NCBI RefSeq assembly: GCF_001542905.1
Contig: NZ_LOAJ01000001.1
Coordinates: forward strand, 2,418,001-2,482,000
DNA from: Halorubrum aethiopicum
GTDB lineage: Archaea > Halobacteriota > Halobacteria > Halobacteriales > Haloferacaceae
Length of the DNA stretch: 64,000 bases
Reading direction: 5' to 3'
Positions within the stretch are counted from its first letter, which is position 1. Every line of letters begins with the position of its first letter. The notes under the pieces are model-generated. The model saw nothing but the letters and a program-made list of their open reading frames with translations, did no database searches and was not told the DNA's origin. This document shows positions 8,586 through 59,124 of the stretch, in pieces. A program made the translations under genes and the position numbers.

Positions 8586-8941
8586 CCTGCTTATAGAACG
8601 GGTGTTACAGGTAGTCTTACTCTGATAGAAACGCGATCGTTGCTGTCGCGGTGACGATCTCCAAAGCCCCAGCCGCGAGGACTTCTGCGCCTCGCTGCGC
8701 GCTTCGGTCGCTCACTTCGTTCGCTCCCTCCAGTGCTTACGTCGGCGGAGTTCGTCCTCGCGGCTGCCCCTTTGAGCCCCACCCCGCCCCGCACAGCCCC
8801 GCACCTCACGCCTCCCCAACCTCGCTGCTCGCTCCGCTCGCGGCGTCCCTCGCGGGCGGTTCGCGGTCGCCTGTGGCGACCACTCACCGGCGCGCCACCG
8901 CTCCGGCGATCGTTCGTTGCTTCGACTGTACTGAACGATCG
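8586..8941 (-). repeat. Dispersed structured element, copy 1 (near complete)
   Basis: It fills most of the gene-free stretch 8512-8970 between convergent asparaginase and purC. Read on the minus strand it starts with a hairpin whose 9-bp arms are 8907-8915 and 8933-8941. It then has the conserved GAGCGGTGGCGCGCCGGTGAG block and a GA/GA hairpin at 8824-8844. A long helix follows: CAAAG 8662-8666 with CTTTG 8770-8774, and a perfect 12-bp helix 8671-8682 with 8754-8765, separated by a four-by-four G-rich internal loop. A conserved 3' tail follows, to about 8586. No protein-coding frame is convincing. Homologous copies are at 21623-21969 and 31860-32258. It could be a structured RNA gene or a non-autonomous transposable element. 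Confidence 0.7.
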
Positions 8942-21622: not shown

Positions 21623-21969
21623 GATCGCTCAATACAGGTGAAGGAGTGAGCGATCGCCGGAGCGGTGGCGCGCCGGTGAGTGCCCGGAGGGCACGAACCC
21701 GACCGCGAGGGACGCCGCGAGCGCTCGGAGAGCGCGAGCCGCGAGGCTGGGGAGGTGTGAGGTGCGGTTTCGGGGCGGTTGGGCGGGACTCAAAGGGGCA
21801 GCCGGCTCCGGGAAGACGGCCGACGAAAGCACCGCAGCGAACGAAGTGAGCGAGGAGCGCAGCGAGGCCCTCGACCGGAGCCGGCTGGGGCTTTGAAAGA
21901 GTTCACCGCCCCAGCAACGATCTCTTTCTTATCACCCCGATCTCTACTGAAACACACGTTCCACTAGTA
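21623..21969 (+). repeat. Dispersed structured element, copy 2 (near complete)
   Basis: It occupies most of the gene-free stretch 21556-22124 between the histidine kinase and map genes. The 5' hairpin has arms GATCGCTC (21623-21630) and GAGCGATC (21648-21655). The GA/GA module spans 21714-21742. The long helix has CAAAG 21791-21795 with CTTTG 21891-21895, and a 12-bp perfect helix 21800-21811 with 21875-21886, with GGGC (21796-21799) opposite GGGG (21887-21890). The 3' tail ends near CACTAGTAC. The helix bases differ from copies 1 and 3 but stay paired. The remaining bases 21970-22124 show only the map leader. Confidence 0.7.
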
Positions 21970-23125: not shown

Positions 23126-23300
23126 TCACACTCACCGGGCCGTCACACTCACCGGGCCGCCCCGCACCTCACGCCTCCCCAGCCTCGTTGCTCGCGCTCC
23201 CGCGCTCGCAACTCCCTCGCGATCCGTCTCGCGCCCTGACGGGCGCTCGCGGGATCGCGCCCCCGCCAGGGAGGTTCTCACTGGAGGAAGCCCCGTCGGA
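23126..23300 (-). repeat. Dispersed structured element, partial copy 4
   Basis: It fills the middle of the gene-free 23034-23389 between map and the MFS gene. On the minus strand it contains the conserved GAGGCTGGGGAGGCGTGAGG block (rc of about 23165-23186). The block is preceded by a GA/GA hairpin at 23187-23212 whose outer stem is GTTGC/GCAAC instead of GCGGC/GCCGC. The long CAAAG/CTTTG helix is missing. A 17-bp unit, TCACACTCACCGGGCCG, is tandemly duplicated at 23126-23159. The rest of the gap (23301-23389) is the MFS leader with no clear TATA box. Confidence 0.55.
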
Positions 23301-31859: not shown

Positions 31860-32258
31860 CGTTCGTTGGACACAGGTGAAGGAGTGAACGATCGCCCGAG
31901 CGGTGGCGCGCCGGTGAGCGCCCGGCGGGCACGAACCGCCCGCGAGGGACGCGGCGAGCGTGGCGAGGTACGAACGAAGTGAGTACCTCGATAAACGAGC
32001 GGCGAAGCCGCGAGCAGGGAGCCGCGAGGCTGGGGAGGCGTGAGGTGCGGTTGCGTGGCGGTCGGGTGGGACTCAAAGGGGCAGTCGCGAGGACGAAGCA
32101 CGGCGCAGCAAGGACCGCAAGGAGTGAGCGGAGCGAACGACTGAGGACCGCAGCAAGCCGCGCGAGTCCTCACGACTGGGGCTTTGGAAGTGTCTACTGC
32201 GCCAACAACTATCGGTTTCTCATCACCTCGATCACTCACGAAACACCCGTACTAGTAG
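31860..32258 (+). repeat. Dispersed structured element, copy 3 (near complete, with extra hairpin)
   Basis: It fills most of the gene-free stretch 31770-32386. The 5' hairpin arms are CGTTC (31860-31864) and GAACG (31886-31890). The GA/GA region is expanded by extra hairpins, one with arms GAGGTAC and GTACCTC (about 31964-31989). The long helix has CAAAG 32074-32078 with CTTTG 32182-32186, and 32083-32094 with 32166-32177 (11 of 12 paired). GGGC (32079-32082) lies opposite GGGG (32178-32181). The 3' tail ends near GTACTAGTAGCAC. Bases 32259-32386 hold only the end region of the next gene. Confidence 0.7.
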
Positions 32259-58998: not shown

Positions 58999-59029
58999 CG
59001 GCGAACCGAACCCTCCCGCCGTCGGCGCG

Positions 59030-59124
59030 CGCGAAACGAGCGTAGCGAGTCGCGCGCGAGGGACGCGGCGAGCGGTGAAACCGCGAGCCGCGAGGCTGGG
59101 GAGGGTGAGGTGCGGGACGGTGAG
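59030..59124 (+). repeat. Dispersed structured element, partial copy 5
   Basis: It lies in the gap 58999-59211 between malQ and the carbamoylase-type gene. It has the conserved GAGCCGCGAGGCTGGGGAGG block with a GTGAGGTGCGG tail, preceded by the GA/GA hairpin at 59065-59091: GCGGC-GA-GCGGT, loop GAA, ACCGC-GA-GCCGC, every base paired. A flanking hairpin with GCGCGC arms lies just before it. The long CAAAG/CTTTG helix is missing. Confidence 0.55.

Follow-up and report, generated by a model that had tools for sequence, protein, structure and literature searches.

Repeat element copies in the window

The window, that is, the whole stretch of 64,000 nucleotides of Halorubrum aethiopicum DNA that was analysed, contains five copies of a repeat of ~300 bases. 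In each copy a hairpin, P3, directly precedes a conserved core, GAGGCTGGGGAGG, and the strand bearing this core is referred to as the core strand. The features of the five copies, with the P3 of copy 4 parsed together with all copies, are as follows.

8662..8933, minus strand: copy 1, whole element from CAGTACAG to CTTTG, with P4 at 8662-8774
8804-8823, minus strand: core of copy 1, GAGGTTGGGGAGG
8824..8844, minus strand: P3 of copy 1, GCCGC GA GC GGA GC GA GCAGC, with one C-A mismatch in the outer stem
21630..21921, plus strand: copy 2, whole element in the longer form, with left end CAATACAGG, P2, P3, core, P4 and right end CACCGCCCCAGCAACGAT
21675..21699, plus strand: P2 of copy 2, GGT GA GTGCCC GGA GGGCAC GA ACC
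21714..21742, plus strand: P3 of copy 2, GCCGC GA GCGCTC GGA GAGCGC GA GCCGC, with one C-C mismatch in the outer stem
21743..21762, plus strand: core of copy 2, GAGGCTGGGGAGGTGTGAGG
21791..21895, plus strand: long hairpin P4 of copy 2, CAAAG GGG CAGCCG.../...CGGCTG GGG CTTTG
23167..23186, minus strand: conserved core of copy 4, GAGGCTGGGGAGGCGTGAGG, whose 13-mer is counted below
23187..23212, minus strand: P3 of copy 4, GTTGC GA GCGC GGGA GCGC GA GCAAC
23213..23221, minus strand: conserved CGCGAGGGA of copy 4, the spacer between P2 and P3
23229..23248, minus strand: P2 of copy 4, GCGCCC GTCA GGGCGC, with GA/GA on its flanks
31900..32186, plus strand: copy 3, whole element, with the core at 32026-32045 and P4 at 32074-32186
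31951..32025, plus strand: P3 of copy 3, GCGGC GA ... GA GCCGC, with a long nested hairpin insertion inside
59024..59110, plus strand: copy 5, short form without P4, consisting of P2, CGCGAGGGA, P3 and core
59065..59091, plus strand: P3 of copy 5, GCGGC GA GCGGT GAA ACCGC GA GCCGC

The positions and stems that the first-pass annotation had given for the hairpins of copies 1, 2, 4 and 5 agreed with the sequence. The five window copies all had the tandem GA/GA loop before GAGGCTGGGGAGG, among them copy 3, which that annotation had omitted.

Anatomy of the element

In ca. 98 copies of the same genome, the element (median length about 280 bp) began with GCGGTGGCGCG and continued through P2 (for example, CTCC GA GTGCCCC ... 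GGGGCAC GA GGAG), CGCGAGGGA, P3, GAGGCTGGGGAGGYGTGAGGTGCGG and a GC-rich stretch to P4 (CAAAG GGG CAG ... CTG GGG CTTTG), ending near CACCGCGCCAGCAACGA. A longer form had an additional CAGTACAGGCGAAGGAG on the left and about 60 more bases on the right; some copies were without P4 or P3, and many carried nested hairpin insertions. The ends of the long form, CAGTACAGG on the left and GCACTCGAAATATAACGGC on the right, did not form an inverted repeat, and those of the short form shared a match of 6-7 bases (GCGGTG/CACCGC).

P4, as seen in copies 1, 2 and 3, is a long hairpin in which GGG faces GGG between two paired arms. A lone P4-like module was also present in Natrialbaceae plasmids, in one instance adjoining cdc6. 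In some Halorubrum species (loci L110, L111, L115 and L118), the ~30 bases just upstream of the element contained sequences resembling TTTATAAA, and part of this set had them downstream as well.

Copy number, spread and genomic setting

The core 13-mer occurred in 114 exact copies in the 3.33 Mb genome, as compared to 2 for the reversed control. The copies analysed from this genome were the stretches around the matches listed, among which reverse-strand copies beyond about 1.51 Mb are under-sampled. The element was found in 32/32 Halorubrum genomes sampled (the present one included) with 8-160 copies each, while the reversed control gave 0 everywhere, and it was sporadic in other haloarchaeal genera; the named hosts were Halorubrum, Halorussus, Halosimplex, Haloparvum and Halobellus. 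Literature searches with the core string and on repeats of Halorubrum yielded no description of it. A viral origin was rejected, since the core was absent from viral contigs and had no match in phages.

When genes were predicted from codon usage, 94 of the 95 copies among the matches listed were intergenic. Neighbouring genes of the copies listed were convergent at 42 sites, tandem at 39 and divergent at 14, and both orientations of the element were common at tandem sites (16 and 23). At two loci in two haloarchaeal families (L059 and L097), the element lay beside the 3' end of apparently the same conserved gene. A single-strand transposase would predict that element orientation is linked to replication direction. 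Among the copies listed on the chromosome (G000:C1), there were 8 forward and 15 reverse copies in 1.0-1.51 Mb and 56 and 35 elsewhere (Fisher p 0.03, uncorrected), so that a dependence of orientation on chromosome position is only possible.

GA/GA loops persist between covarying stems

When P3 was scored by position, all five outer bases were paired in 68/76 copies of the own genome, 55 of which had GA/GA; in other genomes, the outer bases were paired in 97/123 copies, with GA/GA in 37/97. Copies without GA/GA had mostly a continuous Watson-Crick stem, GGA/GGA or nested insertions. Because a continuous stem or GGA/GGA mostly takes its place, the hairpin is required and GA/GA is preferred rather than obligatory. 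Among distinct arm pairs, 18/26 were fully paired (3.4 after shuffling), and 80% of the cells in the outer stem were paired as compared to 56% in shuffles. The covariation score of 65 distinct arm sequences was 0.555, whereas shuffles gave 0.176 and 0/500 of them reached the observed value.

Hairpins with a 2x2 GA/GA loop were ~18 times as dense in elements (5.28 per kb) as in intergenic DNA outside them (0.29 per kb). When both strands were counted, GA/GA accounted for 222 of the 682 2x2-loop hairpins in elements and the complementary TC/TC for another 222; on the core strand alone there were 131 GA/GA and 11 TC/TC. The core-strand GA/GA hairpins were closed by a pyrimidine-purine pair in 130/131 cases, and their loops were GNA triloops in 85/131 and GNRA tetraloops in 12/131. 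The GA/GA internal loop between varying stems is thus real and under constraint, and the earlier observation that the GA positions persist while the flanking stems change holds across the genome. The pattern across copies was not one of broken stems or of GA lost at random, although paired bases often stood in place of GA/GA.

Hairpins resemble stable DNA folds

GNA loops made up 49% of the triloops of perfect hairpins in elements of the own genome and 33% in elements of other genomes, as compared to 3-5% in controls (coding DNA and the remaining intergenic DNA). Elements rarely had GNRA or TTCG loops, and about 1% of the pairs in the stems of own copies were G-T. Upstream of the element, no promoter recurred at a constant spacing, and TATA-like sites occurred in a few species only. 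When folded as DNA, copies 2 and 4 gave z values of -2.68 and -2.55, respectively; when folded as RNA, copy 2 gave a z value of -1.46, which is not outstanding, and P2 and P3 were also predicted. C(GNA)G loops and sheared tandem G.A pairs are known in very stable DNA mini-hairpins. The general class of such mini-hairpins has been described (PMC10527192). No Rfam family was matched at gathering or relaxed thresholds, and a kink-turn RNA was rejected, as the GA/GA loops are symmetric 2x2 loops with no three-base bulge. The GNA triloops, the few G-T pairs and the lack of a promoter at constant spacing speak for folded single-stranded DNA rather than RNA.

Mobility and hairpin exchange at orthologous sites

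The element is mobile, as seen from species-specific insertions. The site of L059 was filled in the own genome and in G060 and contiguous, with no element, in about nine other species. The site of L017 was filled in the own genome and in G290 and empty in G060 and G021, that of L042 was empty in G060, and that of window copy 2 was empty in G021. With regard to target duplication and the exact ends, empty sites were found, but their intergenic flanks were too diverged to place the junction. At the L059 site, G021 (L162) had an apparent remnant of the right-hand end alone, GGCTGGGGCTTTGGCGGCGTTCGCCGCG.

At five orthologous sites (L012, L017, L048, L054 and L057), the elements of related species had quite different P2 and P3, and P4 also differed between orthologous copies. 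The P3 of L017, for example, was GCGGC GA GC GGA GC GA GCCGC in the own genome and GCCAC GA GCGCTT GAA AAGCGC GA GTGGC in G290. The exchanged sequence was nearly always still a hairpin, mostly with GA/GA, and the flanks at these sites were about 82-96% identical where matched. Since different hairpins lie beside conserved flanks, the hairpins are replaced as units, via conversion between copies or re-insertion. The stems had initially been described as compensatory; they do vary and covary, but mostly by whole-hairpin replacement at orthologous sites and not by stepwise compensatory mutation. Covariation in repeats may therefore stem from whole-hairpin exchange, and selection on RNA need not follow from it.

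The hairpin design is shared with IS605-type transposon ends

The right ends of haloarchaeal IS605-type elements had the form GC GA stem loop stem GA GC with varying stems, followed by GAGTAGGGTGGGGTAGTTCAC; one example was GC GA ACCGC GTCA GCGGT GA GC, which had covarying relatives. The left ends, by inspection, had GGAGC GA CC GAA GG GA GC GG. Among 2x2-loop hairpins beside IS605 terminal helices, GA/GA was found in 15/20. The element and the haloarchaeal IS200/IS605-type ends thus have in common this one-strand design with varying inner stems and a subsequent G-rich stretch. In contrast, IS605 ends have an outer helix, CCCCACCCT/AGGGTGGGG, which is absent from the element, and their loops are mostly GTCA and not GNA; the element is marked instead by its GCGCG/CGCGAGGGA region, by GNA loops and by the GAGGCTGGGGAGG core. 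This core was not found in 30 TnpB loci, and L307 alone showed a likeness between the left end of the element, CAATACAGGCG, and an IS605 left end, GAATACAGGCG.

The TnpB guide RNA (omega RNA) is known to include the right-end region of IS605-type elements, and the left end lies outside it. Since the left end nevertheless has the same hairpin, the factor common to both ends would be TnpA, binding single-stranded DNA. The own genome (G000) had no PF01797 match, that is, no Y1 transposase, and there was no TnpA in the 1.37 Mb surrounding about 220 element copies; no autonomous copy was therefore found. Across genomes, the Spearman correlation of copy number was -0.31 with TnpA (p 0.22) and 0.04 with TnpB.

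Comparison with known systems

The element resembles the PATEs of Haloquadratum (PMC3119063) in its non-coding length, its many diverged copies, its internal or near-terminal palindromes and a design related to IS605-type ends, and small nested insertions target both. It is too short to encode a transposase, its palindromes near the termini are related to those of IS605 in design and not in sequence, and it is mobile. Unlike a PATE, its core and scaffold were not in the IS605 ends sampled, its parent transposon was not found, and its three hairpin modules are exchanged among copies; it is PATE-like and not a proven PATE. Coding for TnpA or TnpB, which marks members of IS200/IS605, was not found in the element. 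Like bacterial REP/BIME sequences with their RAYT (PMC3733652, PMC6006769), it forms ~100 intergenic palindromes per genome that favour sites downstream of genes, but it is a longer, composite sequence in which neither a GTAG nor a CGTC tag was seen, and the own genome has no gene for a RAYT-type Y1 transposase. The only TnpA-Y1 subclass found in archaea in PMC6006769 was IS200.

Candidate mechanism and alternative explanations

Based on these results, the element is probably, though far from certainly, a gene-less, non-autonomous, palindrome-associated (PATE-like) element that is recognised by an IS200/IS605-type transposase. P2, P3, P4 and the nested hairpins would fold on the GAGGCTGGGGAGG-bearing DNA strand when it is single, such as at the replication fork. 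Tandem G.A pairs and GNA loops would make the hairpin both stable and irregular, like those at haloarchaeal IS605-type ends, and the single-strand Y1 (HUH) transposase TnpA would be expected to bind a hairpin of this type. The conserved GAGGGA and GAGGCTGGGGAGGYGTGAGG may serve as the recognised scaffold, with a hairpin needed between them and the stem sequence free. Cross-mobilisation in the past by a transposase that is now missing from the own genome may account for the copies seen today. Several results count against this reading: the own genome has no Y1 transposase, copy number did not increase with TnpA or TnpB, no autonomous copy was found, the core was absent from the TnpB loci, and IS605 hairpins differ from the element in their mostly GTCA loops and in their terminal helix.

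It is also conceivable, if unlikely, that the element is a REP-like sequence acting in host RNA, in 3' untranslated transcripts, in termination or mRNA protection, with G.A as an RNA internal-loop motif. Convergent and tandem sites are strongly favoured, as in bacterial REPs (PMC3733652), P2 and P3 are also predicted by RNA folding, and a strongly transcribed PATE end is known from Halorubrum lacusprofundi and its virus (PMC10544981). However, both orientations relative to neighbouring genes are common, G-T pairs are few, GNRA and TTCG loops are nearly absent, there is no fixed promoter, and copy 2 folds unremarkably as RNA. The first-pass annotation had taken the tandem G.A pairs as a classic RNA motif; the constrained loop stands, but the RNA reading is less likely because of the hairpins at IS605 DNA ends, the GNA loops, the scarcity of G-T pairs, the lack of a fixed promoter and the hairpin exchange. 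A relationship to the TnpB guide RNA, as a structured non-coding RNA serving as a decoy or guide scaffold, is suggested by the same GA/GA design in the IS605-type right end, which is part of that RNA, but this design also occurs in the left-end hairpin, which lies outside the guide RNA, Rfam gave no match, no core sequence lies near tnpB, and copy number is unrelated to TnpB; we consider this very improbable.

The copies might instead be relics without a current protein partner, kept alike by gene conversion, with hairpins swapped by recombination or fold-back replication slippage. The lack of a transposase in the genome, the very different P2, P3 and P4 of orthologous copies beside well-conserved flanks and the recurrence of identical P3 variants in many copies would fit. 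Presence and absence between species, however, show that insertion occurred, and pure conversion leaves unexplained both the one-strand GA/GA in different stems and the same design at IS605 ends, so that relics are somewhat less likely even than the REP-like role in RNA. Slightly ahead of relics, but still doubtful, is a family defined by a hairpin grammar (core strand, GA/GA, GNA loop, free stem) that would still move or exchange hairpin cassettes in genomes without any Y1 transposase, via a host enzyme reading shape and not stem sequence.

The same-strand GA/GA hairpin, found in the repeat in all Halorubrum genomes of the sample as well as at haloarchaeal IS605-type ends, amounts to a shared shape code. 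Whether single-strand transposases recognise a hairpin by its shape, with no constraint on the sequence of the stem, can now be tested.

The nested insertions consisted of one or two small hairpins, frequently with GNA loops, within the stems and loops of the element (L030 and L049, L025, L042 and window positions 31951-32025). PATEs and IS605 elements are known targets of nested small hairpin insertions (PMC3119063). Small mobile repeats (SMR; PMC3119063), which are short, non-coding and without a transposase like the element, resemble the insertions found here; the element differs from them in being a target of such insertions and in having no clear terminal inverted repeat. Similar nested small-hairpin insertions were also present in IS605 left ends.
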